Below the pieces are notes generated by a model. The model saw nothing but the letters and a program-made list of their open reading frames with translations, was not told the origin of the DNA and did not search any database. Made by a program: the position numbers and the translations under genes. Positions 7,722 through 42,094 of a stretch of DNA of 64,000 bases are shown here, piece by piece; within the stretch, counting starts at the first letter, position 1, and the number at the start of each line of letters is the position of its first letter. The stretch is from Lepraria neglecta. Its lineage: Eukaryota; Ascomycota; Lecanoromycetes; Lecanorales; Stereocaulaceae. The DNA is taken from contig CM065649.1 in NCBI GenBank assembly GCA_033220425.1, forward strand, positions 1,984,001 through 2,048,000, read 5' to 3'.

Positions 7722-7976
7722 TTAGCAAAGCTTTGGCTTTCCTGGCAGCAGATTCATTGTCAGTAAATCTGCGACACATAAGGAGGACCTTGACACACTA
7801 ATGGCATCCTTCTTGCCCTGAGCAATCGACGCTAAGCGGGCGTACCACTTCAGAGAGTCTTGAGAAACAGCCTTCATGATATCCTTCTCGGAAAGGTACC
7901 GTTCAACGGCCGGAGATGGTCTGTCCCATTTCGTCCCGTGCTTGAGGGTCTGGCCTGACATTTCTGCGTCAGTCAT
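7722..7976 (-). CDS. Micro-exon family member 1 (short form)
   Basis: First of seven paralogues. The coding exon 7799-7976 is followed by a 57-bp intron (7742-7798) and a 20-nt last exon ending KPKLC-stop, giving about 65 aa. The middle carries the family core as PAVERYLSEKD. It then lacks the W-x2-FLV-x-GK part and goes straight to AVSQDSLKW, which matches AVAQDSKKW in member 2, so about 17 residues are missing internally. Unlike other members I cannot find the tiny first exon; two in-frame ATGs (7976 and 7961) are possible starts. It may be a shortened but working copy or a decaying one. Function unknown. Confidence 0.55.
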   Translation of the reverse strand: MTDAEMSGQTLKHGTKWDRPSPAVERYLSEKDIMKAVSQDSLKWYARLASIAQGKKDAISVSRSSLCVADLLTMNLLPGKPKLC

Positions 7977-10900
7977 TTCAGGAGCCGGCAAACGGACAAG
8001 GAACGCTTGAGAGAAGCCGAATTACGACCTGAATGAAGCGAATATCCTAGTCCTAGTTCAAAGCAATCGCCGGTGTGTCTGTATATTATCCGAGTAGTGA
8101 AATTGAGGATACAACGGGCCTTTCACGTATTGTTCCTCTGAGTTTTGGGGGGTTATCAGGGAACCCATCGAGGTCGCAAAATTGAGTAATTGGCCCCAGC
8201 CAACCCTGTCGATTTGTTCAGTTTCTGACCCCTCCGGCATATTGGTGCATCACTTTTGCGTTACTGTTATGCTGTCTTAGGTGGTGTGTGGGCATGGCGG
8301 AGTGTGCTGATTGGGTCAGATTAGGTGATTTATCAAACGCTCCAACAAACCCTGATCTGACCCTAAGCCAAATTGAGTGGGACCCGGCCAACCTGTCAAT
8401 TTAGATCGGCACCCTTAAAATCGGCCTTTATTCTTCCCACCCGCTTCCCCGTCCGATCTGATCTTCAAATCGGAGTGTTGACGTGCTTGGCTGCAGCTTC
8501 ACAAATGGGAGATAGAAGCGTGGCCGTCTTATGCGTCGCTTAAAGATTGGCAGACTGTCACGCCTAGATTTCGGTCCTTTCCAGGCCTTCGTCTGCAGCC
8601 TAGCGTCTCATCCATCCACCGCCACCATCACCAACGTCGAACCCGCGATTTCGCTATCCTATGTAGCATCTCATCCAGGGAATTTTGACTCATGCACCGA
8701 AGAAGAAGGAACGGCTAAGCGCGCATTCGCGTGCAGAGAATGCATGGCTTATCCATCATACTTTATGCAAGGCACGAACGAACATTCAAGCTTAGTTTGG
8801 AGCAGATCCCTGTTGCAGATCCTCTCGATTTGGCTTCTCCGACTGCTACTCTATACTCATGGAAAGCCTGTCAGACTTGCATGTATTCTTTGACTGGAAT
8901 CGCAAAAGGAAGCGCCCGTTTGTACTCGGAACCCCACCATTAGAGCTTCTTTCCTGCAGGGTTGTCAGCAGTACTCTCCAATGTGTCGGTAGAATTATTC
9001 ACCTTGACCTTTCTCTCTCGGTGGATCCAGGTTGCCAATCAGATCCTCGAGGTACTGTGCTTTGGATTGCAGTCGACTCAGACCACCTCACTGTTGTGAC
9101 CATGCAGCCATGCTGCACTGGTCCACATCATGGAGTGTCTTCTGGATTCCAGCACATTGACTTTGGTTGAAGAGCTGCTTTGCAGTAGGATAAGAGTATC
9201 TGGATCCATATTTGCTTTGGGGGTGCCTAAGGTCGAGCTCTTAGCTTGACAAGGTATGGGAATCCAGTCCAAGATAGGAGACTCATACGACATCATGGCT
9301 GATTGGAGCTTATCGAGCTTATTGCTTCGAAACGATGATTGGGGGATAAGGCTGACAAGTTTGGCTGTACAGGATATATCAAAAACATAATCTAGAGACA
9401 AATTGGAAGCTTTTAAAAAACGTCCAGGAAGAAGGTGCTGCCCCATGCGCTGCGCATGGCTATAAATGGAGCTAGTTGGGTAGGCCATCCATGTGCATGT
9501 GCAAACAATCAAGAGAGAGGGACGACACTCCATACGGCAGATGCAGATATGGCAGCCACTATTTGGCTAAGACTCCCTCAGGATTCAGGACACTCTCCGC
9601 CTATTAATAATAAGACTACAGTTGTCAGTCTATATCCACGTTGAGGGCCTTTCACAAGGCTCACTCTCAGCACGAATCTCAATTTGTTTTGCCTCCCTGG
9701 TCGTGCGTGAGTCACATACAAAAATACCCACAAGCTTCCAACTTGATATCGTTAGTTTTGCAGCATCAGCGTGGCATTGATGACCAGCCTCTCGGACTGC
9801 CACTCAATAACCTCCAATGCTGAACATTCCTTGCTTGACGGCTCAAAAGTCGCCTGATTGGTCACATGGCGCATGTAGTCCTTTCTAGCGGCTGCTAAGT
9901 TCAACGACCAAAGGGAACGAAAGCCGGACGGGCCAGCCGAGGCCATCAAAGACTTGGGCGCGGCAATGACTTCGCCAGGGTCCCTATATTCGGGGGTGTT
10001 TCTGGAAGTCTTCCGATGTCAGTGCTCTTGCATTGGCGTTGGAAAGCTTAATTGACGGTTTCTACGCCAAAGGTGGACAGACGACACGCCTCAGCCTCAT
10101 CATAGCCGTTATATTGCTAAAGTAAGTGTGCAACGGATATGCACTCGCGCAGCGCATCAATTGAGTCAAGTATGGGTCGATTGAGCATTGTGGACTATCC
10201 CCTGAAAGATATGTCAAGAAGTCAGCCATGAATCTTAATGTTATGCACGTCAGAAAGGACCAAAAATTCTGCGTGTTATTTTGGGGTAGGGCAAGTTACA
10301 AGTGCATAACACAGCTGGAGCCCCGCGAGCCGCCCTAATTGCTGGTGAAGATTGCGGGTTCGGGGAACCGGGAAAGCCACATGTTCAAGCTCTTCGGTAC
10401 CACAATCTGCAACTAAGATTCCGGAAAAGAATTCCAGAAATCCTAACAGTCCAAAAACCCGGCCCATCAAATTCGCCTTGTACTCACTCTCCGCACGAGC
10501 CTCTCACTTGACCACATGCGACCTCCAGATCGTTCTTATATGCATGATCTCACAGGCACAGCGCCAATGCGTCATCTACCCATAATACAACCACTTTGCC
10601 TTAGCATAGTGCCCTAGTGACAACACGCGGATCATCTACTGGACAAGACTGGCCATCTATGCGTGATTAAACATAAATCAAGATATTTACAGCCGCGGTA
10701 GTGGTGTGGAGTCCAGCTAATGCCTGTAACGCGCTGGCCTACTAAAAAGGACGAGCCCTACGGGTGAGCTGTCGGACAACCCTGGAAGACATGCGCCGCT
10801 GGATGCATAATGAAGCCTGACCAGTCTGGTCCAGGGGTACGCTATACGCTTGGCGTGAAACTTATCTTTAGGATTACAGGTGTAACCTTGATAATTGGGC

Positions 10901-11352
10901 AGATACTGTAATTGGTTGGTTCTTACAACTAGTTGTAAGAACCAGCCAACCAGAGAGTGAGCTTAGCGACAGGGATCATTAATGACCACCCCTGATAATG
11001 ATCGCCCAACATTTTCTGCATATTCCATTCAAAAATCACCAGCAACGACAGATGGGTCTTAACGTCAATGAATAATATTATGGTCTCGGAGTATTAATCG
11101 CACTAACATTATGTCGCATAATCTAGATTCTCAACTCCACCACCCAAGTACAATGATCTACACATCATCTAACGTTCCGCCCACCGCCTCCTTTGAACAG
11201 ACAATCTTGAATTAGCCAGAAGCATTTTCGCCCGCATACTGCGGTAATTTGTTCCATAATGTAATGGTGGGCAGCACAGGAGGCTCTGACTCTCGCAAAA
11301 AATTATTGCCAGGGTCCGCCGTACGGCATGGGTGCGATGAGCCTTCCGTCTG
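7977..11352. other. Gene-poor stretch with a palindrome
   Basis: No gene is supported over about 3.4 kb. A 151-codon minus-strand ORF (9078-9533) and several plus-strand frames near 8.5-8.9 kb have no recognisable content. A near-perfect 40-bp palindrome at 10911-10950 is listed separately. The density of stop codons is what non-coding DNA would give. Confidence 0.35.
10911..10950. repeat. 40-bp near-perfect palindrome
   Basis: The left arm ATTGGTTGGTTCTTACAACT is followed without a loop by its reverse complement, with 18 of 20 positions matching. A second, weaker inverted repeat (GGGATCATTA ... TAATGATCGCCC) lies about 25 bp downstream at 10973-11008. The pair could be the core of a decayed miniature transposon or a cruciform-forming site; no target duplication was found. 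Confidence 0.6.
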
Positions 11353-11734
11353 TCAGATCTTGGATCCCTCTATGGTGAGAAGTTTTGTCAGCAACCATTT
11401 TTGACGTCTTCCGTCATGACTTACTTTGGGCTTGTGGTTGGGTTTTTCTCGCCGGGATCCTTGCCAAGGTTTCGTCCCACTTTTTGGAATCCTGAGCGAC
11501 GGCTTGTCTTCCGTCATCGTTGTGGTCTATCCCCAGGACGAGGAACTGCTTCCATGCGTCCTCTTCGGTAATGTAGCGCTCAATGGCTGGAGGATTAAGG
11601 TATTTATTGCCCCGATCATTGCTGGTGTTGCCAGAAGAACCTTGACTGTTTCGCGTCAAATTCGAGGAGCTGTCAGCACCTTACTTTAGCAACATTCTCG
11701 CAGCTTTCGATCAATGGCATTGGACGTACGACAT
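11353..11734 (-). CDS. Micro-exon family member 2
   Basis: Exon 1 is 5 nt (11730-11734, ATGTC), followed by GTACGT. Exon 2 is 11425-11669 and exon 3 is 17 nt (11353-11369). They join in phase to 88 aa. The introns are 60 and 55 bp. The protein starts with a Ser/Asn-rich stretch (MSSSNLTRNSQGSSGN). The core is PPAIERYITEEDAWKQFLVLG, then a charged segment with QDSKKWDETLARI. It ends AQKGSKI, which replaces the GKPKLC ending of other copies. No signal peptide, TM segment or named domain is present. A GC-rich block about 170 bp upstream (11905-12015) is shared with 14285-14400. Function unknown; the family relation is clear from the core and the exon layout. Confidence 0.72.
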
Positions 11735-12689
11735 TGCTTGAGGACGATCAAGGATAAGGTAGAATGGTGCGTCAAGTCGGAATTTTCTGTACCGGGTGAG
11801 CGAGCTGCGTACGAAGTCTTGGACTTTGTCTGTGGAAGAAGCACTCGCATAAACGATAGGCAAGGAGCAGAAGTCAGTGCCCTTTTATAATATTAGAGGT
11901 TAGGGAAGACCGCCCTCTGTGGGAACCTTGCAACAAAAGCCATTCCCCATCGGGAAGGGCGAGAGGGCGTCGGCTATGAGAGGAGGGCGGGTTTCAATGG
12001 CCAAAAAGCGCCCTCCACTCTTCTTCGCAATTCAGCAAATTTTATGATGATGGGGCGCTTGAAGTCCATGGTGCATCCCTTGTGCATTCAAGATTCTCCG
12101 AACCTGCAGCGATTGTTAAGACTATGTGGAACGAGAATTCCCAGGACTGAGATCGAGAATCTATTCGCTCGCATAATAGGCGATTGTAATGTGGTCGGCG
12201 GAAACGGCAGGTCATTCCCTGATCCCTCTGGCACAGTCGTGCGAAACCACCCATCGCTTTCTTCAGCTCGTGGCTAGGTTCCCGTTCTAAGGCATAGACC
12301 TCTTCAGCTCTGATACTCAATGACAGATGCAGCTACAGATTGCAAGTGGGTCTAGCGAATGCGGCTATTCGTACAATTGTCTAATTGTCAGAATGACATA
12401 CATCAATTTGGCACATCAATCACGCCAGACACAATCCTTTCGCTCTTACACTTACGGTAAAAATTCATCACCTCACCTTTATCAATTGTATAAATATATC
12501 GAGAGAAATCGAGACACTAATGCTAAACATACTATAGTTGGAGTACCCACCTATGCCAGGGGGTACGGCATCCTACCTCGGCCAGAAACCCGCCTCTGTC
12601 ATTCGTCCAGAAATTACCGTTATTATTCGAGGCTCCAATTCCCCGAATTAGGGGATCCAAAATTCATGCGGCAGGGTGCTGGGGCACGT
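11735..12689. other. Intergenic with a duplicated GC-rich block
   Basis: Contains the promoter side of member 2 and a GC-rich block that recurs near 14.3 kb. Overlapping ORFs at 12042-12320 on both strands have no recognisable content and are not called. Confidence 0.4.
11905..12015. repeat. Duplicated GC-rich intergenic block, copy 1
   Basis: Shares a run of matching sequence with 14285-14400, including GGGAAGGGCGAGAGGGCGTC and an AGGGCGGGT element followed by TCAATGG. Both copies contain CCGCCCTC and its inverse GAGGGCG, so the block can fold on itself. Copy 1 lies about 170 bp upstream of the start codon of minus-strand member 2. It may be a shared regulatory module or just part of a larger duplicated unit. 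Confidence 0.65.
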
Positions 12690-13044
12690 CTAACAAAGCT
12701 TCGGCTTGCCTGCTTCGATTCGAATTGTCGGCAACCGGGGCTTTCAGTAATTCTTCATGTCGACATCTTCGTCCATCTTGGCCAGCATGTCTATGTCTAC
12801 GGGGAAGCCATGATCGCTCGTTTTTCCAGTGCCACATTCCTTGTTTTTGCCGATAACAAGAAATTCCTTCCAAGGATCGTTTTCGGAAAGATATCGTTCC
12901 ATTGCACAAGGATACCGATAATCTGGTTTTTCATAGCTAGATCGGCGTAGGCCGTCTTCGTGGATCTTAGCAGGGCTACTATGGGTTTCAAGTCAGCTGA
13001 TCGACAATTCACTCATTTTTAGGGACCCAGCCTCACGATATGAT
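12690..13044 (-). pseudogene. Micro-exon family member 3, start probably lost
   Basis: The middle exon (from 12978) encodes the family core PCAMERYLSENDPWKEFLVIGK followed by an acidic tail with MLAKMDEDVDM. The frame ends at a TGA at 12744-12746. Further on, an AG followed by codons for GKPKLC-stop (ending 12690) is still present, but no good donor joins the two. At the 5' end the sequence around 13037-13044 aligns with exon 1 of member 5, but ATC stands where that copy has ATG. So the ancestral layout is visible, with start and last splice both damaged. It could still be expressed from another start; I judge it a decaying copy. Confidence 0.6.
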
Positions 13045-13749
13045 CTAAGAATTGTACAAATATAGTTTCATTCGGAGGACCCAGTGTCGCGTATGTATTT
13101 ATTCATTGAGAGGAAAGCAAGAAGCAATTACGGCCACCCAATACTTATAACAGGCAGGTGGGACTCTCATCATCAGAATCCCAAATACAGGCAGAGTCCT
13201 CTTCACAGGCCCCTGTAGTCTAAGCGTGCTGCATGGTCACGATTCATTTGAAGCTCAGTGGCTCGATTTCGAGAAGTCTTAGCTTGGCGCGAAGAGAATG
13301 ATAATGCCAAGAAAAGATGAACGAGGTCCTTGCGCGAGAATCTTGCAGGCGGTTGAACCTGCAGGCGAGCGAGGAGCTTACATGGAGTGCACCAGGCCAC
13401 GCGTCATGCAATATATACTCCAGAAACTACAGTTGTACGAGTAGTTAGCGCACTGGCACTCAACTGATTGATTGGACTTTTCGAGAAGGTGGCTTGTGCG
13501 CATCCAGGACATCCAGAACGACGGAGAATTGTTTTGTTTCTTGTATGGCGCAAGAAGGCTAAGGCACTCACGCGCGCCAGGCAGTACGCAGTCCGTTGTT
13601 GAAACGAGGCCAGTTTTAGGTCCTTTGGTCGTTGGTCGTTGGTGGGACTTCAGAAGCCACGCTGCAGCATCGTGGAAGGCGGGAGAGCATCTTGTAAAGC
13701 CACCAGATCTCTCTATGTTACGCTTGACAATGGACATTGAGCGGCGAAT
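13045..13749. other. Intergenic, start of a duplicated segment
   Basis: No gene is supported. A 139-codon minus-strand ORF at 13378-13797 has no recognisable content. Sequence near 13468-13500 (GATTGATTGGACTTTTCGAG) resembles 17545-17575, marking the segment duplicated together with the flanking small genes. Confidence 0.4.
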
Positions 13750-14028
13750 ATGATGTAAGGTTGTTGAGTGTTTCAAAGCCCCTCGCATATCCGACATACT
13801 TTCGGAGAATTTTCACATAGACGCTGCGGCAGAGCACGTTACTATGTGCTCGTGCTTTCTTGCTGCAGCAACTCGTCTATCAAGTGGATGCTCGATTTGC
13901 AGATCTATCGGAGAAAGTGTAAAGTGTGCTATTCGCGACTGGGTGAGTTATCAAGCACGTATACAAGCGCAAATCGTTGCACTTAACATGCCAGCCTTTC
14001 CCCAAAATTCTGGAACATGGAGGGAATG
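13750..14028 (+). CDS. Small locus C1 with 5-nt first exon
   Basis: The layout mirrors C2 at 17.93 kb: ATGAT followed by a GTAAGG donor, an intron ending TTTCACATAG, a middle exon 13821-13942 ending before GTGAGT, and a last exon from 13994 (after ATGCCAG) reading to a TGA at 14026-14028. This gives about 53 aa, rich in Cys, Tyr and Arg. The nucleotide sequence aligns with C2, but the acceptor position places C1 in a different frame, so the two proteins do not resemble each other. One of them, more likely C1, may be non-functional. No domain is recognisable. Confidence 0.35.
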
Positions 14029-14284
14029 AACGATGATGCAGTACATTGGTGGGGTATACTTGAATTCCCAGATTGAAACATGATATCATTTCGGCTTCGC
14101 CTTGGGCTCGTGAGTTTGGAATTCATAGATCTTTTTTGATTTGCTTCTGAGAGGCCTTCAATTTGATCTTTCTTTTGGGATGCAGAGCTTTTGACGATGC
14201 CGAAGTGCTGGAGCTTGCTTACTGTGAATGCAAACACATGACAAAGGAGAAGAAAGCCAGCATCCTCTTATACGATCCTTGGAT

Positions 14285-14400
14285 AGGAGATACCGCCCTC
14301 TGTAGGGGACTTCGGGACAAGCTATTCCTGATTGGGAAGGGCGAGAGGGCGTCGGCTACAAAAAAGGGCGGGTCTCAATGGTCAAAGGGCAGGGCCTTCA
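14285..14400. repeat. Duplicated GC-rich intergenic block, copy 2
   Basis: Second copy of the block at 11905-12015, with the same order of CCGCCCTCTGT, GGGAAGGGCGAGAGGGCGTC and AGGGCGGGT elements. It lies between C1 and member 4, and just upstream of a minus-strand frame (to 14237) that resembles 18344-18530. It is part of the evidence that the region grew by segmental duplication. Confidence 0.65.
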
Positions 14401-14609
14401 GGAACAACCTTAACGGCACCCTTGAAGGGCTCTCTTTCTGACTGGAATGAATTTACTGAGGGCGCAAATCACAAAAGTTGGATAGCCGGGCTATTAATAT
14501 GCTATTGAGTCGCTGATATCACCAAGGTATTAATCCCTGCATAAGCCATCCAGCGCGTCCATCGACTACCCGAAAGTCAATTGCTACTGATATCTCAGAT
14601 CTTCAGTCC

Positions 14610-15013
14610 TCAATATGGAAGCTTCAAACTAGGATAGCTTCAGCTGTTCTAGTCGAACAATCATCAACCCATCATCAACCCGGCTTCGCATGGGGTTTTT
14701 GTGACTTACTAATCGTCCATTCGTTTACAGTTGCCCTTAGTGAGCTCGACCAATGCCTCATCCAGTTCTAAAAAATCATGCTCGGAACTCTCATTCGTAT
14801 CATTTTCTCTCGATTTGCCGGTAATAAGAAATTCATTCCATGGGTTGTCCTCGGAGAGATAGCGTTCAATCGCTGGACTTCTATCTCCTTCGGCCATATG
14901 CTTGGCGACCTGACTAGGTCGCCACGAGCTTTGTTGCTGGGCATGTGTGTCGCTGAAGGAAGTCTCGAGTCAGCATGTACTTCGTCCCCCATTCCTGTTT
15001 AGACTCACGACAT
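14610..15013 (-). CDS. Micro-exon family member 4
   Basis: Exon 1 is 5 nt (15009-15013, ATGTC) with a GTGAGT donor. Exon 2 is 14710-14952 and exon 3 is 19 nt (14610-14628). They give 88 aa, the same length as member 2. The introns are 56 and 81 bp; the second starts GTAAGTC, at the same place as in member 2. The N-terminus is Gln/Ser-rich (MSDTHAQQQSSWRPSQ). The core reads RSPAIERYLSEDNPWNEFLI, then TGK. An acidic helix rich in Glu and Asp follows, and the end is DDYLKLPY. No signal peptide, TM segment or named domain. This is the cleanest copy for showing the exon layout. Function unknown. Confidence 0.75.
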
Positions 15014-16581
15014 CTTTTAGGGTTGTTGTTATTTTCTTATCCAAAGCAACAAGCGTTAGATACCCTTGTATTGTGTGAAAAGAACAAGAGAATTTGGGCA
15101 GATCCAGCTTACATTTATCATCTTTAAACGAAGGACTTATCAACGACTTCAGCCGCTGCAGTAGCTCAAAGATGACGTGACCAGCGCATGCCAGGCCCTT
15201 CCAGACATAAAATCTATGCAATCATACGGATACTGGAGGCTCTGGGCCCAAGGAATGGACGTAATTGGCTGCTCTGAATTGATCCCCGTGTATGTTTCTC
15301 CCTTTATCATCTCGAGCTGCACACTATCGTGGCATAACCAATCCATTGTAGACAGTGGCTCCCACAGGCAAATGCCTTGGTCTTTGGTCGATCAGTATAA
15401 ACGTCGTAGGGTCTCAAAAGGGCATAGTTCACGGCGGCTTATGCGATCCCGCTTGTCAAAGCAGCCGATCTTTGCTGGATAGAAGTTAGCCTGCTCCTCC
15501 AAGCCTGAAATAAGGCTGAAGGCTGACGATCTTGCCCCAAGTGCGCTGCTTTGTGACCAACGGCCAGCCCCCACTTCTTACCAAAGGTTTCGCTCAAAGC
15601 TCCACCTAAACGCCATGCCCTTCGGTCGCCTTCTCAGAGTTCAATAAGGAATGTGACGCTAAGAAAAGTCAACTTATGACCTAGTGGCTTTTTGGTCCTT
15701 AGCTTCATGTCGTCACGATACGCTTTCTAGGAAAAGGGAATTCTAAAATGATTAAAACACGACTATAACTAATTGATAGAGGCTGAAGACTTTCTGCGAT
15801 GCAATATGCAAGCGTTGTCTGAGTCATTTTTCGAGCAGAACACGAAAGACGGCAAGTACTAGCATTGACGCATTATCTCCTGTGGTCTTTGGTTAGCTCG
15901 CCTAGTGCTTACCTTTCTCACTGATGACATCTATTTATGCCAATTTATTGCAACTACACAACGCAATTGACGATAAGCTAGTGGACTTGTACGAAATCCG
16001 TTTTATATTGTCAATCACCTTGTTTGAGCTGGCATACGAGGGCATTGCAGCATTCCAAATTCTCCATCCAATAAGACAATGGCCACAAAGTCTAGAGGTA
16101 GATCTCCATTTACATCTTGTGCGCTTACTGACCAGCTCGAAACGAACGTTTGTAGTCAAATGAAATCTAATTCTATTCTGTGCTGCTTACTGACCAGCAT
16201 AAATAATAAGGTCCAAGCCGCAAGCTACTGAGCAAGCACAAGAGCTAATCTCGCTCGCGCTTGTCGCTAGAATCGCCCAAGTCCTTCCACAGGCAAACTA
16301 GGCCTTGAATTAGTCGTTCAAGTGCCTGGCTCTACAACCAAGTCGAATCAATAGCCAAAAACAGCCAAGCAGGCGCAAATTATACTGTCATTACGCTCGT
16401 CGTTCAACTAACATCATTCTAGAAATTTATTGGGGGATGCAAGTTGCTACCATCCGCAGGAAACATGATACCCTTCATTGCCACGTATCGCCTCTCTCAC
16501 TCATGTAAGGACCATTTTAAGTCTTCGACGTCTCAGTTCATCAAAGCTGGGGCTCCGCGCTGAGTCTGGCAGGGTTTACAT
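15014..16581. other. Gene-poor stretch
   Basis: No gene is supported over about 1.6 kb. Short frames on both strands at 14.97-15.22, 15.2-15.5 and 15.93-16.16 kb overlap each other and lack splice or domain evidence. Confidence 0.4.
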
Positions 16582-16958
16582 CTAGCAGAGCTTGGGCTTG
16601 CCTGGTTTTGGCCTAATTTTCAGTGAATCTGGAACTTCAACAGGAGCCTATTTACTTGCCATGTTGGCCGCCCTGGTCATCGATTTCAACTATCTTGGCC
16701 AACATGCCCTCATCCTTGACCAAATTGTGATCGCTAGTATTTCTAGTGTCATATTCCTTCTCTTTGCCGATAACAAGAAATTGCTTCCAAGGATCGGTCT
16801 CGGAAAGGTAACGATCTATTGCAGAAGGGCACCGATATTTTTGTTTTCCACGACTAGACTGATGTGGGCCATTTCTATGAGTGTTGGAAACGCTACTATG
16901 GGTATCAAGCCAGCTGTTGTCATGATTCAATGGCAGAGGCTTAGACCTACGATATCAT
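16582..16958 (-). CDS. Micro-exon family member 5
   Basis: Exon 1 is 8 nt (16951-16958, ATGATATC) with donor GTAGGT. Exon 2 is 16656-16895 and exon 3 is 31 nt (16582-16612). Joined in phase they give 92 aa. The protein opens MISSVSNTHRNGPHQSSRGK, then the core CPSAIDRYLSETDPWKQFLV followed by IGK. A charged segment with MLAKIVEIDD follows, and the end is GKPKPGKPKLC. The Cys is the very last residue, as in member 1 and in the remnant of member 3. No signal peptide or TM segment is present. Member 3 is its closest relative by intron sequence around both splice sites. Confidence 0.75.
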
Positions 16959-17926
16959 TTGAGTATTCCAGGAATATACTTTGGTTGGGAGGGGTTGATA
17001 TCGAGTATCTGAATATCCCTTAGGGGCAATAGCAAGAAGCAACTGAAACCGACCAAACTATTGACTAGAAATGGAGTCCTTATCACTTATATCCACCATG
17101 GGCCCGTCCAGGGGGAACTCCAGCTTGAGTACCGAACTGCAGCCCCATTTTCTGCGGCACCAGAAACACGTACATTGTTTGCCGGGCTTGGTTCAGCGGA
17201 TCTGGGAATAAGTGTGCAGCATACCGACGACTCCTAATTTACATTGGCTAGATATTTTGGGGGTCTTTTTGCAGCTAAAAACAATGGGATATCGTGTCTC
17301 GGATGTGGAGATTCAGCCAATGGCAAGCATCAGGCTGTCAGAGCTGATCGGTAATAAAGGTTTGACTGTCTACATTGCACATGGCTGCACGAAGGAGCAG
17401 CTAATGCAACTCTACCAGGTCATGCAGATCGACCGGTAGAAGGACACGCAGAAGTGCGTGTGGGTGAATTCGAACAAGCTAGCGATTACGATGGGAGACC
17501 ATGGAACCTGCAAAGATTGAGCCGCGCAACTCAGCGGCCAGATCGATTGGACTTTCTGAGGCTGTGGCTTATTATTGTGGATAGGTCCTTGTCAGAGCAC
17601 TGTCAAACCCAAGGATTAAGGCGTTACTCGAATCAATCATTAAATAGCACGAATGTATAAGATCAAAGAGTGGCTAGGTAAAGGGGTGCTTGAGCTTATG
17701 CGCAGTATTGTATTTCTTGAAATACGACGAGGAATTATTTCGACTGAGGCGAAGGAGAAAGTACCCACGCACTAGACAGTACACCATTGATCGCTGAAAT
17801 TAAAGCGAGCTGCAAGTCACCCGCACGATAAGGATCACTTAAGCGCACCCGACAAGTCACAATCCACGATTGAGATCCGGGCTAGTTTCAAGCCGCTAGC
17901 TCGATAAGGAACTTCGAACGGCGAAA
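16959..17926. other. Intergenic, part of the duplicated segment
   Basis: No gene is supported. It lies between member 5 and C2 as 13045-13749 lies between member 3 and C1, and shares short matching runs with that spacer. A run near 17485 (GCGATTACGATG) also recurs near 21477. Confidence 0.4.
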
Positions 17927-18199
17927 ATGATGTAAGTGTGTCAGAGACCTCGCATATCCGACATACTCTTTTCGGAGATATTTCACCACGCAAGCGCTGC
18001 GGCAGAGCACATCAGTGACTTGCTCGAGCTTTTTGATGCAGCTGATCATCATGTTCTTAAGTGGATGCGTGGTTCAAAAATCTGCCATCGAATCTGTAGG
18101 GTCTTTCTCTCGATTGAATGCATCATCATGGGTGCACGTAAGCTGACCCGAATGCCGACGGATGAAGCCCTTGGGTTTTTTCTCTTAGCAACCAGTTAG
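17927..18199 (+). CDS. Small locus C2 with 5-nt first exon
   Basis: Exon 1 is 5 nt (17927-17931, ATGAT) with a GTAAGT donor. Exon 2 is 17995-18137. Exon 3 is 11 nt (18189-18199) after a strong TTTTTTCTCTTAG acceptor. Joined they give 52 aa: an acidic amphipathic N-terminal helix (AAAEHISDLLELFDAADHH), a basic Cys/His/Arg stretch (KWMRGSKICHRICR), a short hydrophobic run, and the end MGAPTS. No domain is recognisable and it does not align with the seven-member family, but it shares the tiny-first-exon and tiny-last-exon plan. The introns are 63 and 51 bp. Confidence 0.45.
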
Positions 18200-19755
18200 T
18201 GTGAACCTGCACCTGAAGATTCAGCGTGTCAGCCGTGCTTGTGATGGTGCGTAGCTTCCCCCAAACCCGGGGATGGGGGAAGGAATGAACGGCAAAGTGG
18301 TACCTTGATGGGGAATGATTATTCCCCTATATGAAACCACAGTCTAACCTAGAATCCGTCCTAGCCTTTTCAGTCCTAGTTTGGAACAACTTCTTCGACT
18401 TACTTCATAAAGGTCTTCATTTTGATCTTTAGGTAAGAATGCAGAGCTTCTGAGAAGGCTTGCATATTTTCGTACTACGTTTGAAGGGAAGAAGGCAGTT
18501 ACGTTGTCCATCTGAAATTGCTGATCCTGAATGCAAAATACATCCTGCCGAAAAGAAATTGGGCATTTCTCGTACCTATCCGATGTCGTAGCCTTGTGTG
18601 GCTTTCTTTGGGCTACGGGCACCACTGCAATTTGGGCAACACATTGAAATAGAACGCGCCAAGCACAAACGTTGTTCGTTCAGTCAGTGCTCATATCGGG
18701 AAAGATGACATCAAGGCCATTTGAGTGCCACGAGGCAGGATGTGGTGGAGTTAAGAAAATTGCACTTTCGGGTAAATTGCACTCAGGCGTGAAGCGGATA
18801 AAACGGTTACGCACGGAAGGTAAGCACCGGGGATGGACCGAGGGGGTCGAAGGGTGAGCTGATGTCTTGCCGAAAAACTTGATCTGAGAACACCACCTCA
18901 TGCAAACCCCTGTTCACTCTAGTACAGGAACAGCCTTACGCTTGCGTCAGAGGGAGGTTGCGGTAAGACCTACCAACTTAAAGTCGTAACATTGATCCAT
19001 TCTTGTCGATTTGGTCTTGAACCAGCGAGCTGAGCCTGTGAGGTAGCAGCTTGTGAACAGAAGACGCACAAAGATCAGGGTACAACGAGAAAGAAGTTAG
19101 CGATCAATCGGTCGTGGGTAGCCTTGAATCATGCGAATGAGAAGTAGGAGCGGTCTCAGCATGGGATTGCGCTATGCCAAATCGCCGATCTGAGATCTCG
19201 CTAATCTTGCAGCAGATGGTCAGATGCTAGCGTGCATACTTCATCGAGATCCTCCGATCATACTGCCTATCAGATCTTGTGAGTTGGCATACCCGAAGCC
19301 TCAACTGCCGGGATTGCGCCTGGCCTTTCGGAATTTGCCGGTTTGCGCCCAATTGATGTCCTCCATACTCCACCGTTGCGTTAGGAAGTACGAGTATGCT
19401 TTAACGTCCGCTTCCTTTGCCTTTGCCGTTCGATGACAGTGTGTACTAAGCCCCTCGTTCGCTTGTCACAGGACACTTTTTCTTGCATTAGCCTTGAAAA
19501 TCCTGACATAGTCACCACATCAGATTGGCAGTGGAAAGTGATCAAGATCAAGGATGATGCCCATTCGTTAATTCTCGCATGGGTCCTGTGCTTTTCCAAC
19601 ATAAGGTCCCTTGAACGCCCCATCCGATTTTTTTTAAATAACTTGGACACAAAATTCAAGCATTGAAAAGAATCCATCTCAGGCACTTCGAAATATCTTA
19701 TCACTCCTTACTGCGCCATTCCACAGATTCGTAACTTGCTTCGCGCTTTCCAATT
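18200..19755. other. Gene-poor stretch
   Basis: A minus-strand frame at about 18344-18530 (KYASLLRSSAFLPKDQNEDLYE, then GTAAGT) resembles a frame at 14110-14237 (KLQHFGIVKSSASQKKDQIE). So the duplicated segment extends at least this far and may include another small gene. I cannot assign its start. Nothing else is supported. Confidence 0.35.
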
Positions 19756-20304
19756 ATGAAGTTAGTACTTCCTTTCAAGACCGTCGACCCACTCCCTACC
19801 CTCTCCTCCAAATTTTGAACGCCACAAAAATCACGTCTTGGGCATTCAGGAGATCGGCCACTCACGTCGCTCGATGTACTTCTTTAGCTCCACCTGTCTC
19901 AGTTTAGATAATAGTCCTCGACTCTGCACATTCATGTTTTATTTTGAAGTCGTGTTGCTGAAACTTAAAAAGTTACCCAGAGCCCAAAGATAGCAAGAAG
20001 CCTGCCTTAATTGGGCACTGCCAAGTTCCAGCCCGTCAGCCTTCATCAGCAAGAGACTACCTACCTGGAGGACAGAAGTATCAAGACGGTCCATCTAATA
20101 ATCCTCGACAGGGGGCACCTATATCGCAATGGCTCCGTGAATGGGAGCAGGATTGGGAGCGTATGGCCAGCGAAGGAAACAAAGCCGGTCAGTTACCTTA
20201 GGACGAATATTTATCTCTTCTAGTATAATTAAAGCCTTACAGGGAAATCGAAACTTTTAGGGCAAAAGATTGAATTGCACGCTGCGCGTTTACTCAAACG
20301 GTGA
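19756..20304 (+). CDS. Micro-exon family member 6 (B1)
   Basis: Exon 1 is 5 nt (19756-19760, ATGAA) with donor GTTAGT. Exon 2 is 19973-20187, 215 nt, exactly as long as in member 7. Exon 3 is 20243-20304. Together they encode 93 aa. The N-terminus reads MNYPEPKDSKKP, then DYLPGGQKYQD, NPRQGAPISQWLREWEQDWE and GNKAGKSKLL. The W-x2-x...GK spacing lines up with the IERYLSExDPWKQFLVxGK core of the minus-strand copies, and GKSKL corresponds to GKPKL. The frame then runs on 15 residues longer than in member 7 before a stop. The first intron is 212 bp, the second 55 bp. Confidence 0.68.
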
Positions 20305-21685
20305 CATGATATCATTGCGGCCTTCGGATATGGATGTTTAAGCTACGAGGCAACGGTAGTGCAGGAAATGAGTTTTTTCACATAATAGGGAAGCCAGCGG
20401 CAACCATCAATGGTGAAACAGAATAGCTCACAAGAACATTTAAGGGGTTGATAAACTGTTCCCTTGACGTCGTGCAGGCGATGATACTACTTGGCCGAGG
20501 CAAAACAAGGCAAATGGGTAATGCCTCAAATCATGTACCGCTCCTGTCCGGAGTACCATTTTTCATAATTACAGGCACGAGGGCAAGCAGGTGAGGCTCG
20601 ATTGAGAATCTATAGAATACATGACCGGATTTTTGACAGGTGCAGCCGAATTCTGTGTGCTTGGGGAACATGTAGTAAGGTCAATCATCCCAAATGCATT
20701 CAAGCAGAACAGAGAATACCTAGGCAAGACGATACAGTCTATCAGATGAGATTACATCCTTCGAATAGTGGTTTAGCCTATTCCAAGACTTCAATCAGAA
20801 TCTAAGTGTGGCATTTTTGTGTCAATTGGGCAGAATGGATCGCTAAAATAATAAGCTGCCTCTGCGTCAACAAAGACGTCAGTGAATCCAAAAATGGGCC
20901 GGCTAAAGGCATCAGCAGCAGCGAATGACCGAGATGGCTAGTTTGGAGGCTAGTTTGGAGGCTAGTTTGGAGGCTAGTTTGGAGGCTAGTATTCACAAGA
21001 CGTGGGGTTTAGGGGTAGTTTGGAACATGTTGGGGGTTCTGCGCATGTAACCCATAGGATTTGCATGAGGATAGATGCCCAACAGGGGTAGCGACAACAT
21101 TGATTGGCCGAGCTTGTTACTTCCAACCAGCTTCAAGCTTCGCGGCAAGCCGACAACAAAATCCAGGTAAGGGAAATGGTCGCCAACTGCGACAAAAAGT
21201 CAAAATCGTGGCTGCCTGTGGCTGACCGCTCTGAAGGAGCGCAAATTCAGCAAATAGCGCCACAGTCTAAGTACTTTAGCTCTGTCCAGATGAGGTTTAC
21301 GTCATCCCACACGTGCCTAGTGTCCCACTCACAGGCGGCGCTGGCAAGCTCAGCTTATGACTAGGACTGAAAAGTATTAGCTTGTTATTAAAAAACGACT
21401 GAATATCCGAGAGCCGAGGCGGTCCAAAGACGCAGATGGAGTTAACAATTTGACTCGCCCAATCCACCAGTTCCTAGCGATTACGATGAGAGAAACTATC
21501 TATGCCTTGTGGCTTGTTGTAACGGCCCTATGCCTTTTCCCACATAAAGTTGCTTGAGTCGCCTGTCCCTCTCTCCTGGACTTTAAATGCGGACCACCAG
21601 CATCAGAAGCTTCAGCCTCGAGTTTTCATAGCTTTCGTGCCTTCAAAGCTTTCACTCCTGTGCTTCGACAACGCGCTTTTCGGCT
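20305..21685. other. Gene-poor stretch with a 12-bp tandem repeat
   Basis: No gene is supported. Contains the short tandem array at 20936-20990. An 86-codon plus-strand frame (21104-21364) has no support. Confidence 0.4.
20936..20990. repeat. 12-bp tandem repeat, about 4.6 copies
   Basis: The unit GGCTAGTTTGGA is repeated four times perfectly plus a partial copy. It sits in non-coding DNA between members 6 and 7. The perfect units suggest recent slippage. Confidence 0.9.
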
Positions 21686-22146
21686 ATGACGTTAGTACAC
21701 CCATTCTCATTTAATTAATTTCGGTCCAAGGAAAAGCTACTTTCTGCATCTCGTAATGCACTTGTGGTTCCGTCCGTCCCTGCGAACACTATTGTTCCAC
21801 TAGTCTCCCGCTTCGATGTTGGATGCAATGACATGTAGCTGAAGATCAATTAGTGACTCCAAACCCAAAGACGGCAGAAAGCCTGTTCCTGTCGACGGTC
21901 CTCAATCGCCGGCTCCAAAAGATTACCTGCCTGGAGGGCACATCTACCATGACGCTCTTAACAACATGCGTCGATATGGGAATCCTCGTCAGGGGACGCC
22001 TGTACCGCAATGGATCTGTGAGTGGGAAGAGAAGTGGCAGCGTATCACTAGCGAGGGTAAAAACAATGGTAAGGAGTCCGGCTGTCAGTCAAGAGGCCCT
22101 CATTCGCTGATTATTCATGGCACCTATAGGCAAGCCCAAGCTTTAA
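21686..22146 (+). CDS. Micro-exon family member 7 (B2)
   Basis: Exon 1 is 5 nt (21686-21690, ATGAC) with donor GTTAGT. Exon 2 is 21854-22068 (215 nt) and exon 3 is 17 nt (22130-22146). They join in phase to 78 aa. It opens MTDSKPKDGRKPVPVDG, then APKDYLPGGHIYHD, NPRQGTPVPQWICEWEEKWQ and GKNNGKPKL-stop. So the last exon encodes the same GKPKL ending as the minus-strand copies, without the final Cys. The two introns are 163 and 61 bp. The splice acceptor of exon 2 aligns base for base with that of member 6. Function unknown. The Trp-rich helix and basic tail suggest a binding peptide, which is only inference. Confidence 0.75.
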
Positions 22147-29347: not shown

Positions 29348-30200
29348 CTATAAATTTATTGGCGAGGCGCATATAAAATTTCCCGTGCAGAGCGCGTGTT
29401 TTACGGTCGAGTCAATAGTAGGCACGTTCGTACAAAGCACTCTCTCCTCCGAGGCGGTTGCTGAAGGTGATGATGGAGAGTCGATAATCGTTGGATCCGT
29501 GAGGGTGTATTCTCCGCACGAGAGAGTGATATTTTGGTCCTCGTATGCAAGAGTGATGACATCGGTGTTTGGGCCGGAGAGGCTTTCGTCCCAATAATCC
29601 AGACTCACAGACACGCACGTTGCTGGGAAGCTTGCCGGAGGCTTGGACCGGTCCTGGTCGAGCTTCGGAAATTGGCAGCCATGCAGCTGGCATTTGATTC
29701 GAATCTAGAGGAGTATGTTAGCATCGTGAGAGAGAGTCCGTAGTGAAGGGTGGTATACCTAGGATTAGAACCTGCATCGGAACACCAACTTGGCTGTACC
29801 ATATGGTCACTTCAGCACTGCACTGATCAGGTACCCAGTCACCGGAATTGACAGGCAGATATGCTGGGCCAGCGGGGCCATTGTAGCATCCGTAGTCGAC
29901 ATAATTCTGCTTCTGCGTCTAGATGTCGGTCGTGCATATCAAAGATATATGGAAAAGGCCTTACAAAAGATGTCCACCCGTTAGGGTACCCGTATCATTT
30001 GCCAGCGATAGCCAAGCAATCCCATCCTTATCGGCAAGGTTCATCTATACACCTTCGGCAGTGCATGCATTGATACCGGTTATGACATCATGGACAGTTG
30101 CGTTGGTGACCTGGCCCACCGACCCGAAAAACGTCGGCTCAAAGCTCAAAGCCTCGCCAATGACGGATTGGCTAGATACAGTCTTGGGGCTAGCGCAATA
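29348..30200 (-). pseudogene. Secreted-protein gene, 3' half, split by transposons
   Basis: Three coding blocks are visible on the minus strand. The first abuts the pogo element and reads YCASPKTVSSQSVIG...VTNATVHDVITGINACTAEGV, then TAG, then MNLADKDGIAWLSLAND. The second (about 29790-29903) reads NYVDYGCYNGPAGPAYLPVN...EVTIWYSQVGVPMQ. After an intron (GTTCTA...CTCTAG), the third runs IRIKCQLHGC...SLDYWDESLSG to a stop at 29348. Cys-rich, N-glycosylation-type composition fits an extracellular protein. The TAG could come from CAG by C to T change, and the splice between the first two blocks does not close in phase. The 5' half lies at 45676-46567. Confidence 0.75.
30199..30200. repeat. TA target-site duplication (left)
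   Basis: TA dinucleotide flanking the pogo-type element on the left; the matching copy is at 45676-45677. TA duplication is diagnostic of Tc1/mariner/pogo insertion. Confidence 0.85.
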
Positions 30201-30251
30201 GGAGTAAGCCCCAGTACGCGCACGGTCCCACTATGCGCACACCTCCACCAA
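30201..30251. repeat. Pogo-type terminal inverted repeat, left
   Basis: Matches the reverse complement of 45626-45675 with only a few differences over about 50 bp. Confidence 0.88.
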
Positions 30252-31907
30252 ATATGCACCAGCAAGCCAAATTTCAAATCCCACTACAACCAATGTATGT
30301 ATGGAGTTGAAATCTGTACTGGAGATAGATTGAATCAATATTAATCCGTGTGACTACTGCTATAACTACTGGAATCGTATCGGAAGCTTCCGTGGCCTCC
30401 CTAACCTCCCCTTCTTAATTTCTATTACCTCCTCTTTAGCAGTAGAATTTTTAATTATAACTATATCTTCCTGTATTAGTATAGCGGGAATCTTCTTCTT
30501 ATACCCTTTGGCTTACTCTTTAAGGCCTATTTAGATCTATTATACAGCCTACTTAGTAAGCCTTACCTCCTCTTTAGCAGCCTTCTTTTCCTTTACCGCT
30601 TAAGCCTTCTAGAATTAAGCCTATTACCTCTTAACCTTCCTCTAGGCTACCTCTATAGCCTTAGCCTCCTTTTATATCTATCTTTCTTCTTTCTCTATTA
30701 TTTTTTACTCTATAAGCTTAGCTTTCTTATCCTCTTTAACTACTATAAGCTCTCTAGCCTATTATATTTTAGTTAGGCTAAACTATAAGCTTTTTAAATT
30801 ATCTCTAAGTATATTAAATAGTAGCTTAGTATATATTCTTTTCTTCTTTTCAATAAATACTACCCTCCTAAGACCTTAGTTTTCTACTTCGAGGATTAAG
30901 TTCTTAGCTATAAGCTGTTCTAGGGTATTTAAGAGCTTACGGACTTCTGGCCTAATTATATCGCTAACTACTAATTTAATAAGACGATATACCTTGATCT
31001 AATTATTATCTAAGAGAGTAGTTAAGCTTAGAGAGCCACTTAAATTACGCGTTATTAATCGTCTTTCTTAAAGTTTACTTAGAACTTACTCTAGATTAAA
31101 AGGAAGCAGGCCTATCTTTGACTACCTACTTACTATATTCTTTAGACTGAATACTTATAAATAAGCAGGCTAAAATAAGCTAAAGAAGTATCTCTTATTT
31201 AGCTTATAAAGCCTTTATATATTATATATCTATTAATTAAGTTATTATAAGTAGTAGTTTACTAAGGGACTAAATAAGCTTATATCTAGTAGCTATAGCC
31301 GATAAGTTGAATATAGAGGATATACGGCCACAATAATCTTGTATTAATTATACCAGTCCAAGAACGATATATTCAGATAGCTTCTATACCTATTAACTAG
31401 AAGAAGCCTATAATCTCTCCTATTCCGTACCTTCCCCTTGGTATACCTATTAAAAACCTTAGTTAACTAAGAGATACCTAATAAGTTATTAGTCTAGCCA
31501 GTAGGAGAAGATATAAAATAGGCTTCCTAGTTATTGAAATCCTCTAGCCAGGAGTCTTATATATTATCTATTTTGGCTTGGTAGATAATAGATAGTAGGA
31601 GATAGGATCTATCTATAGAAATTGTAGCTACGACTATAATCCATTCCCTATTCTTATCCTGGCCAGTACCTCTTATTTCAGGACCTTTAGAGAATACCCT
31701 CTTAGTCTTCTAAAGGATACTAATTAAGAAGCCTTTCTTATCCATATTATATATATTTTCTAGGAGTATATCATATTAAGCTATTTTCGAAGCTATCTGC
31801 TCTATATTAATATAAGAATATTACTATTTAGGATTAATTACCTTCTTAAAATAGAGGTTATATTTATAATAATTATCTGCTTTCTTCCTATTAAGATTAA
31901 AGCCTAG

Positions 31908-32422
31908 TGTTACGATTAGGAAATATGATCAGGGATGCGCTCAAGGAGCGTAGCGCCTGTCATGGTTCGAGTCGACGAATCGGTGTCCGACTCGGACAGA
32001 CCCTGAAGGCTTGGCATATTAAGCGATGAGCGTAGTAGTCGCAATGAGCGCGGTACGATTAGTGCGATCAGTGCGATCAAGAAGGCTTGGCATGTTAAGC
32101 GATAAGCGCAGTGGTCGCAATGAGCGCGGTACGATCAGTGCGACCAGTGCGATCAGGAATGCTTAGCATGGATTTCGTATATCTATATATACGGAGTACT
32201 ACTCGTACCACTTGGAGTATCGTGCTTAACTTACTATTCAATTATTTACTATATACGATAGATCTCTTAGGCTAGGTACTAAATATATATTATCTAATTA
32301 TATACCAGACCCGCTTAGTATTACTTAAAGCCTACTTTACCCTCTTACTCTATTATACCTCTATCCCTATTAAGAATCAATCTATATATAATAGACTACC
32401 GCACGCAACATAGTTTATAATA
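31908..32422 (+). repeat. Left LTR of outer Ty3/Gypsy element
   Basis: 515 bp, same length as the right copy. It holds an internal direct repeat of about 80 bp (GGCTTGGCATATTAAGCGAT...) in two copies. The second half is more AT-shifted than in the right LTR. Confidence 0.9.
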
Positions 32423-35400
32423 CTTTAAGTACCCTTAAGGATAAGTACTACACTAAGAGACCCTAGGGTATCTACCCTAAGCTCCTTAGGAGGAGGAAGC
32501 GAATAATAACGCCCAACTATTAACGAAGGACTCAGTAGATATATTAAGATAGCCTAGCCTAACTTATACTATAGAGAGAGAGATAAGCTCGAGGGATAGC
32601 TATCCTAGGTATTACTTTACTTGAAGTTCTAAGGAGACCTTATACCTATATAATAATATCCTACCTTTACTATTACTTACTTACGTAGAAGAGCCTAAAA
32701 GTAGGTTAATCCGTTCCTAAAGAAGTATATAGAAGATAATAACGAAGACGGCGAAATCAAATAATAGATAGAGAGTATAGCTATATTTAGACTCGAAATC
32801 CGCCGTATATTCGGTCTATTAAACGAAGTCAATGCAGCGATATAAACTATCTAGTATATAACCTAGAAGAAATCTGTATTAGAGTACTCGACTTAATTTC
32901 AGTAATATATAGTAAAGACTAACTAGGATAATAACGTATTAATAACTATATACCGGATAGGTCTTAAGGATAATATTAAAGACGAGCTTATAAGGTCAGG
33001 GATTATTATTAATACCCTTAATAAACTAATTAAAGAAGTAATTAAAATTAATAATAAGCTATTTAAAAGGACTATAGAGAAGAGGTATAATAGAGGAGTC
33101 GGCGGAATAGGATACTTAAGCTTTTTCGCTAAATCAAGGAGCTATTATCTAGGACACAAAGAATATAACCCCTACGGGTATATACCTATAGAACTGGACT
33201 TCACGGAGAAGAAAGGCAAATAGGCCTTTAGGGGGCTAGCTAGGGGCAAGAAGTAGTAAAACGGTAATAAGAAAACACTAAAGTATTATAGCTATAGTAA
33301 ACCGGGCTACTTTACTAGAGACTACAAGTCGAAAAATATAGTATATCGACCGCAGCTAAATATACTAGAGAAAGTATATACCTAGGACGATATAGACGGC
33401 ACGTCTAAGGAGATTCTACTAGTATAGGATAAAGTCGAAGAAGATATTAGTTCCTAGTATAATAGGATAATATAAGAAGAACTTAATAAAGAATCCGAAA
33501 ACGGTAATAACGACTTTACAAGGAAGTTTAATACGCGTATCAGGGAATAATATAGGAATAACCTGAATACTAAAGACGGTAGTAAGGCTTAAGAAGAAAA
33601 GTCTAAGTAGGATTAGGAAGAAAGCGAAATAGATCTAGAGTAGGAAGAAGCCCTTAGCATATTAGAAGCTAAGTAGGAAGAAATACAACTACTAAGAAGG
33701 ATAATACCTGAAACTACTACGTCTAAGGAAGAAGAAGAAAGCTCTAAGGAATATATATAGCTAGACTATCGGATAGATCAGAATTACTAAGGTCACAAGA
33801 GTATACTATAGGAAGAATATATATCGCTTCACTGCGTATAGTATAGTACGCCGAGGAATATAGCTAAGGGGCCAGTAAGAATACTACCCTGCGGATATAG
33901 CTATTACTACGAATATAAGGAAAACGGATATCTATAGCACCTCGCGACGAAAAGAATATACTAATACTTTCTAGGACGCGATAAGGAATAGTTAAAGAGA
34001 GTTATCTACAAATTAAATAATAACCTAAGCGCTAGAGAATGCCATTTAATAGAATAGTACGCCTATCTACACGACAACTACGAGAAGTATATATAGTCGA
34101 AGTTAAAGGTAGGGTTCCTACTCCTATAAGCGGGAAAAGAGTAATCCCTTATAGTAGGGGTAGCCATAAGAAGATCAATATGTTAACCCCTAAACAACAT
34201 CTGTGTTCCGCGCAATACGATACATATATAAAGATACCGGTAATCGTTAACAGATAGCGGACCGTTGCGATAATAGATTCTGGAGCTACTAGAAACTTTA
34301 TCTCGCGAGACTTAGTACGAATAACTAGAATACTAACTCGAAAGAAGTCGTAGTAGTATAATCTTTAGATAGCTAACGGGTTAATACTATTAATAGGAAA
34401 GGTAGATAAAGAGATACTTTCGTTACCTATTATAATTCAGCGCTACTATAAGGAGATTACCTTTAATATTATTAGGATAGCTACCTATTATATAATTTTA
34501 GGAATACCTTGGTTAAAGAAGTATAACCTAATAATCGATTAGGCTCGAGGAGTACTCAAGATAGATTAATCCGGAAATATTACCAGGATTATACCTATAT
34601 ATTAGTAGTATTTAATAGTAGATAAGAAGTCGAACTGAAGACCAGTCGAGGTATATATTACCTTAGCTTCGTATAAGGACGGTACTAAAGGGTAGTCCGA
34701 CTCTATAGTTACTAGTAAAGGTTAGCGGGATAATAAAGTAAGAGTTAAGGGAGGAACTAATATACCCTCTATCCCTTAGGAATATAGTAAGTAGGTATAC
34801 TTATTCGAGGAAGAGACGAATATAGAAGTATTACCTAAGTATTAGCTATAGGATTATAAGATTGAACTCGAACCTAGCAAGTAACTAATATTTAGACCTA
34901 TTTACGCATTATTAGAAAAGGAACTTAAAGTACTTCGCGGGTATATTAACGAGAACCTCAAAAAAGGATTTATTCGAGAATCCAAATTACTAGTAGGTTA
35001 CCCGATCCTCTTTATACTAAAGAAGGATAGAAGCTTATAACTATATATTAACTATCGAAAGTTAAATGATATTATAATCAAGAATAGATATCCTTTACCT
35101 AATATTAGCGAGCTATAGGATCGGCTCGGGAAAGTAAAGATATTTACTAAACTAGATCTTAGAGGCGTATATAACCTAATTCGGATAAAAGGAGGCGAAG
35201 AATAGAAAACTGCCTTCCGAACGAGATATAGCCATTATAAGTATCTAGTAATACCGTTTAGACTTACTAACGCACTAGTAACCTACTAAGTACTTATTAA
35301 TAATATCGTATAAGTACACTTAGATCGAATAGCGATAGCGTACCTTAACGATATACTAATTTATTCTAAGAACAAGAAAGAATATATTACGTATATATAG

Positions 35401-35550
35401 GATATCCTCGGATACCTATTATAAGTAAAACTTCTTCTTAAACTAGAAAAGTGCGAATTCTACAGGGAATTAGTAGAGTTTCTAGGATTTATAGTTAGTA
35501 TAAAAGGTATTAGTATAAGCCCGGAGAAGATCAAGGCTATAGCTAAATAG

Positions 35551-35963
35551 TATTACGACCTACGTCCGGTCGTTAACCTAACGGTGCGATAACCAGGTAT
35601 AGGTAGCGTGTGTCTTATGCTTCTGTGGGAGAGGAGTCACTCAGGTAGAATGGCAGTCTTCGTATATAGAGGTAGTCAGTGCGTTCTATATTGATAACTA
35701 GTAAAGTATAGTGCAAGGAGTACCAGGAAGATTAACCAAGTTGAACACGCTGTTCTAAACAGTGGGCAAAGCCCCGTATATATAGATATAAGAAATCCTG
35801 CCAAGCAATCCATGAGCGTTATGAGCGCACGGCGCTCATTGCGCTCATCATTCTTGAGCGCCATAAGCGCACGTCGCTCGTTGCGCTCATCGCTTCAGCT
35901 ACTAGTCCTGTCTGTAGTACCTTGTCCTATAGGACAGTCCTGTCAGAACCAATAGTTCTAACA
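35551..35963 (-). repeat. LTR of inner element (left copy)
   Basis: 413 bp, matching 41682-42094 with scattered differences that are mostly C/T or G/A. Confidence 0.9.
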
Positions 35964-41681: not shown

Positions 41682-42094
41682 TGTTACAACCCACGTCCGG
41701 TCGTTAACCTAACGGTACAATAACTAGGTATAGGTAGCGTATATCTTATGCTTCTGTAGGAGAGGAGTTACTCAGGTAGAATAGTAGTCTTCGTATATAG
41801 AGGTAGTTAGTACGTTCTATATTAATAACTAGTAAAGTATAGTGCAAGGAGTACTAGGAAGATTAACCAAGTTGAATACGCTGTTCCAAACAGTAGGCAA
41901 AGCCCCGTATATATAGACATAAGAAATCCTGCCAAGCAATCCATGAGCGTTATGAGCGCACGGCGCTCATTGCGCTTATCATTCTTGAGCGCCATGAGCG
42001 CACGTCGCTCGTTGCGCTCATCGCTTCAGCTACTAGTCCTATCTATAGTACCTTGTCCTACAGGACAGTCCTGTTAGAACCAATGGTTCTAATA
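41682..42094 (-). repeat. LTR of inner element (right copy)
   Basis: Begins TGTTACAACCCACGTCCGG. The right flank AATAG repeats the left flank at 35546-35550. Confidence 0.9.

Follow-up and report, generated by a model that had tools for sequence, protein, structure and literature searches.

Fungi commonly have orphan gene families restricted to one locus, and those that are clustered and restricted to one lineage consist of short unnamed proteins coded in local arrays which evolve by birth and death. We describe here a family with the same three characteristics in a 64,000-nucleotide stretch of the Lepraria neglecta genome (further on, the window; positions 1984001-2048000 of contig C4 in a genome of 42.0 Mb and 11 contigs). 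It differs from the described orphan families in having micro-exon ends that are shared around two dissimilar middle exons. The copies on the minus strand of the window are designated M1-M5 and those on the plus strand P1-P2. We conclude that this is a genuine locus-restricted family of short genes, wider than was first noted and partly decayed, with a probability of about 0.85 (lowered from 0.9 because the test of the last exon, given below, is partly circular).

Several described fungal systems resemble parts of this arrangement. The spore-killer gene SKC1 of Fusarium verticillioides codes, in the portion of PMC4978907 that deals with it, for a 70-aa protein without a recognised domain; the gene is also described in part of PMC11355202. 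The likeness is that both are short fungal proteins with no recognised domain (same portion of PMC4978907), whereas here we see many local paralogues with micro-exon ends in an organism that does not look like Fusarium, a comparison made by description and not by sequence. The siderophore enzymes SidI and SidF end in the type 1 peroxisomal targeting signal (PTS1) -PKL, according to passages of PMC3709128, and this is also the terminal tripeptide of the modelled proteins P2 and P3; those proteins are enzymes, however, and most members of the present family have no PTS1-like tripeptide. For the Xlr2 microexon of Trichoderma virens, passages of PMC11121469 state that functional microexons had not been described earlier in filamentous fungi. 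A microexon in a filamentous fungus is common to both cases, but that of Xlr2 is, in the same passages, an alternatively spliced exon of a transcription factor, whereas the exons considered here open or close the genes of a small family. The family itself was not found described in the searches of open-licence literature; among the papers listed for its peptide strings, only ERYLSE matched, under titles on unrelated subjects.

Extent of the family

The first-pass annotation of the window had proposed seven paralogous copies on both strands. Translation and a local profile search, which covered 5223 open frames in 204 kb, bore out all seven, within 7.7-22.1 kb of the window. As a size of the family, seven proved too low: we found at least 16 members, all of them on C4, where they form two clusters separated by about 100 kb. 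Nine of these lie outside the window, 58-87 kb beyond its end:

C4:2105565-2105882, plus strand: M6 (protein/profile search)
C4:2113994-2135397, minus strand: P3-P10 (protein/profile search)

Whole-genome protein searches with M5, P2, P8 and M6 as queries, whose counts are lower bounds, found zero members on contigs other than C4. A genome-wide search with the tryptophan (Trp) helix pattern gave 10 matches, nine of which were members, compared to 0 in the reversed control. The match on C2 abuts an unrelated 225-aa frame and was not accepted as a member. Member P7 lacks the first Trp and therefore escaped this pattern. The best reading of the two clusters is that they evolve by birth and death.

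Gene models

The gene models of the first-pass annotation could be reproduced with GT..AG introns. In a typical gene, the first exon would measure 5-8 nt (the start codon with 2-5 further bases) and the middle exon about 215-245 nt, while the last exon would be short and in many copies code for KPKL or KPKLC. The features of the window copies are as follows (window coordinates):

7722..7976, minus strand: M1, uninterrupted 84-codon frame MTDAE...GKPKLC (translation)
7722-7741, minus strand: M1, final 20 nt, matching the last exon of other members
11730..11734, minus strand: M2, first exon, 5 nt (ATGTC)
11425..11669, minus strand: M2, middle exon, 245 nt, with AIERYITEEDAWKQFL
11353..11369, minus strand: M2, last exon, 17 nt (KGSKI stop)
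12747..12992, minus strand: M3, open frame with core AMERYLSENDPWKEFLVIGK; neither start exon nor 3' donor found
12690..12709, minus strand: M3, last-exon sequence (GKPKLC stop)
15009..15013, minus strand: M4, first exon, 5 nt (ATGTC)
14710..14952, minus strand: M4, middle exon, 243 nt, with AIERYLSEDNPWNEFL
14610..14628, minus strand: M4, last exon as modelled, 19 nt (ends LKLPY; C-terminus YLKLPY)
16951..16958, minus strand: M5, first exon, 8 nt (ATGATATC)
16656..16895, minus strand: M5, middle exon, 240 nt, with AIDRYLSETDPWKQFLVIGK
16582..16612, minus strand: M5, last exon, 31 nt (PKPGKPKLC stop)
19756..19760, plus strand: P1, first exon, 5 nt (ATGAA)
19973..20187, plus strand: P1, middle exon, 215 nt, with SQWLREWEQDW
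20243..20304, plus strand: P1, last exon, 62 nt (GKSKL, then 15 more residues)
21686..21690, plus strand: P2, first exon, 5 nt (ATGAC)
21854..22068, plus strand: P2, middle exon, 215 nt, with PQWICEWEEKW
22130..22146, plus strand: P2, last exon, 17 nt (GKPKL stop)

These models agree with the earlier claims of tiny first exons (5 nt in M2, M4, P1 and P2; 8 nt in M5), of 88-aa products for both M2 and M4, and of middle exons of exactly 215 nt in the two plus-strand copies. The modelled proteins of M5, P1 and P2 are 92, 93 and 78 aa long, respectively. The claim of a GKPKL or GKPKLC last exon stood for M1, M3, M5 and P2 and failed for M2, M4 and P1, which end in KGSKI, in YLKLPY and beyond GKSKL, respectively.

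M1 joins start, core and end in a single frame with no splicing assumed, and it is without the DPWKQF half of the core. Its MTD start recurs in the spliced P2 (MTDSK); with introns picked among scored alternatives, MTDTK and MTNSK are possible readings of P8 and P3, respectively. For M3, the upstream search gave no start micro-exon and there was no scored 3' donor; this copy looks degenerate, though the GKPKLC exon is present.

Terminal micro-exons

The sequence ATG[AT]C followed by GTNNGT occurred 11 times on both strands of the 204 kb (408 kb in total). Eight of these occurrences fell within the 511-nt stretches taken upstream of each of the 16 members, where about 0.2 would be expected; the members concerned are M2, M4, P2, P3, P5, P7, P8 and P9. 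The first exons of M5 and P1 are variants of this start signal.

For the last exon, a KPKL-like terminal-exon pattern had eight matches in the 204 kb, seven of them beside M1, M3, M5, M6, P2, P3 and P6. Genome-wide, the KPKLC form matched four times, each time at a member (control 0), while the KPKL form matched three times, twice at members (control 1); its third match, on C8, sits inside an unrelated frame and was rejected. Comparison of the last exon among M1, M3, M5, M6 and P2 gave 16 differences that were synonymous and none that was nonsynonymous, a count that is partly circular because the five members were picked for encoding GKPKL. The DNA alignment of M5, M3 and M6 is less circular evidence: the last exon is nearly identical, the differences in it are silent, and the neighbouring intron has diverged.

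A scored donor in the right phase is present in M1, M5, P2 and P3; M6 has a weak one only and M3 has none. The donor of P6 is two bases short, which puts its KPKL out of phase. Counted from the start of the QW core, the donor GT is found at exactly 61 nt in seven of the 10 P members, with P6, P7 and P9 deviating.

Constraint and the relation of the two core types

The M core reads AIERYLSExDPWKxFLVIGK and the P core YLPGGxxY...NPRxGxPMSQWLREWExxWxxI. Over 40 core codons, the pooled nonsynonymous and synonymous divergences (dN/dS) were 0.39/1.67 for M2-M6 (M1 was excluded, as half its core is missing) and 0.56/2.02 for all pairs of P1-P10. Several core pairs were saturated in dS. The pooled dN below dS shows that the cores are under constraint. 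With respect to codon usage, all 16 members scored lower than the 95% point set by random open frames; the 12 training genes did likewise, and therefore this test has little power.

The common core proposed for both strands was not supported. The similarity of the M and P cores was not significant (hhalign P-value 0.22), and 166 of 400 column shuffles scored as well as the profile alignment. Since both tests were null, the Trp-helix resemblance of the two types is no evidence of relationship, and we set aside a single core joining them as unsupported. What M and P have in common is the start exon (ATG[AT]C then GTNNGT in M2, M4 and six P members), the last exon (KPKL or KPKLC in M1, M3, M5, M6, P2, P3 and P6), the intron phases and the clustering. 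It is on these shared traits that a common origin of the two types would thus rest.

Protein properties

A Pfam-A scan of the seven window copies, 10 P and 6 M sequences gave nothing above the cut-offs (the best was FA, 12.5 bits vs 30.6), in line with the earlier remark that no domain could be named. That remark had extended to the absence of a signal peptide and of transmembrane segments. By hydropathy, the only property used here, six modelled proteins showed no strongly hydrophobic stretch or start, the top 19-residue mean being 1.19 (unspliced M1). In sequence searches of PDB, M5 alone and the M profile had no match, and the P profile returned nothing beyond a hepatocyte growth factor chain (E 0.23). 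An Rfam scan of window positions 6000-30000 gave no match. IMG/VR (0 of 12 stretches confirmed) and GTDB (0 of 22) are not fungal collections and are uninformative on fungal relatives.

AlphaFold2, run with shallow alignments, gave for P2 a mean predicted local distance difference test score (pLDDT) of 66.1 and a predicted template modelling score (pTM) of 0.35, with helices predicted at residues 28-41 and 50-70, the latter with block pLDDT of 86 and 79. The Trp residues of the P type are spaced i, i+4, i+8, which places them on one helix face. A Foldseek search of PDB with the P2 model had zero matches.

Surrounding sequence

The genome is fungal by the genes that adjoin the second cluster, which code for Nup84/107, a P-type ATPase and an amino-acid permease, and a tef1 fragment, translated by eye, fits a filamentous ascomycete other than Fusarium. 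A search for the species by 5.8S rRNA gave no match. The Nup84/107 gene (L027, C4:2144313-2146697) contains a stretch, RYSSEKDVWDSFL, that is weakly similar to the M core; at E 0.014 among the 5223 local frames, the similarity is probably due to chance, and the gene was not taken as a relative. The second cluster also holds an inverted repeat of about 720 bases (L025, C4:2121741-2122464), 73% identical to its own reverse complement. Between the clusters, window positions 30001-44000 are AT-rich: the GC content is 0.30-0.37 in bins of 2 kb, and the TA/AT ratio of 1.39-1.61 resembles that left by repeat-induced point mutation (RIP) of repeats.

Within the first cluster, two blocks designated 'Q' (window 13722-14194 and 17899-18453) lie upstream of M3 and M5; they are 64-67% identical with very conserved short runs, and a partial copy is found on C3 (L064, C3:1006728-1006867). 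As a third gene type the 'Q' blocks were rejected, given coding signal in none of six frames (the M5/M3 positive control was weak too) and the extra copy on C3; we treat the block as a dispersed element. Another dispersed repeat, short and 85-87% identical, has copies upstream of M4 (window 15511-15584) and of M6 (C4:2104308-2104380) as well as at C2:2204461-2204546. A duplicated stretch, 75% identical, occupies window positions 11862-12005 (upstream of M2) and 14244-14386 (on the downstream side of M4). A 38-base near-perfect palindrome is located between M1 and M2 (window 10912-10949), and a short tandem repeat with a 12-base unit (ctagtttggagg) between P1 and P2 (window 20936-20990).

Alternative explanations

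Besides the circularity of the last-exon count, several observations weigh against a family of functional genes with binding products. The closest M pair, M3-M5, is relaxed (dN/dS 0.20/0.37), and M3 and P6 look broken. In M1, M3, M6, P4, P6 and P10 the first exon could not be placed or differs, and P4, P5 and P7-P10 have no KPKL ending. Both terminal patterns were devised after viewing the members (for the start, their upstream sequences), and the copies are related, so that matches are not independent. Among the five spliced models, the adopted 5' model ranked within the first four of a crude splice scorer in M2 and P2 alone; because few of the chosen 5' models ranked high, the choices of acceptor are uncertain. 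The adopted 3' model was within the top five for all five. The AlphaFold2 model of M5 was poor (pLDDT 55.8, pTM 0.16).

If the copies were decaying or non-coding duplicates, their similarity would be inherited and the small exons would be due to chance. The broken copies, the codon usage without signal and the other duplicated blocks nearby fit this explanation. Still, we consider it improbable in view of the pooled dN below dS, the start signal at 8 of 16 members, the donor position common to 7 of 10 P members and the lack of RIP-like base bias in the clusters (TA/AT 0.70 for window 7.7-22.2 kb). We are slightly more doubtful of selfish or sexual-stage genes acting like SKC1, a short domainless killer of sibling ascospores whose transcript is reported to undergo A-to-I (adenosine-to-inosine) editing. 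The absence of a domain, the local clustering and the decaying copies would suit such genes, as would the size (78-93 aa modelled vs 70 aa for Skc1), which is unspecific; on the other hand, the local paralogues look old, with many core dS values saturated, and the tef1 fragment does not look like that of Fusarium.

We give equally little credit to the idea that the products are peroxisomal matrix proteins, with the last micro-exon supplying a PTS1 (-PKL, -SKI). The P2 and P3 models end in -PKL and the M2 model in -SKI, and -PKL functions as a PTS1 variant in human, yeast and Penicillium, as stated in part of PMC3709128. However, the last exons of M1, M5, M3 and M6 end in -KLC, which keeps the tripeptide from the terminal position, P1, P4, P5 and P7-P10 have other endings, and the KPKL of P6 is out of phase; a C-terminal [SAP]-[KR]-[LI] was present only in the P2, P3 and M2 models and is not a feature of the family. 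The least probable of the alternatives concerns ligands of the autophagy type. The sequence W-x-x-[ILV] after acidic residues is the motif type of Atg8-interacting motifs (AIM) and LC3-interacting regions (LIR), and 7 of 10 P members carry it in an acidic stretch that might bind Atg8. Such a motif is short and frequent by chance, the stretch is predicted as helical, and the M members carry W-x-x-F instead.

The explanation that we prefer, at roughly even odds, is that of locus-restricted short-protein genes with micro-exon ends and soluble intracellular binding products.

Proposed role and significance

The products appear to be short intracellular proteins, probably small binding proteins, a conclusion on function that is weakly drawn; the binding role as such is tentative and has the odds against it. 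They would be soluble intracellular proteins whose N-terminal part is disordered and which bind a partner, in the P type through the helix that has its Trp residues spaced i, i+4, i+8. The basic C-terminal tail may serve as a second docking motif, and duplication may yield copies with changed partners. A bolder possibility, which we regard as a long shot, is a modular cassette in which two unrelated middle exons are flanked by fixed micro-exons that code for both ends of the protein, often M[ST] at the start and KPKL or KPKLC at the end. Splicing of the last exon would then set the signal for docking or targeting at the C-terminus, and swapping of middle exons would diversify the clusters. If true, this could be a new kind of fungal short-protein recognition or drive locus.

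The copies appear to be real genes of a kind that annotation would overlook. With the start codon and the C-terminus on exons of a few bases, the family would be all but invisible to gene callers. Should transcripts confirm the models, they would show that a coding first exon of 5 nt can persist across old paralogues, and the family would provide a test set for the annotation of short exons as well as a clustered family opened to knock-out.

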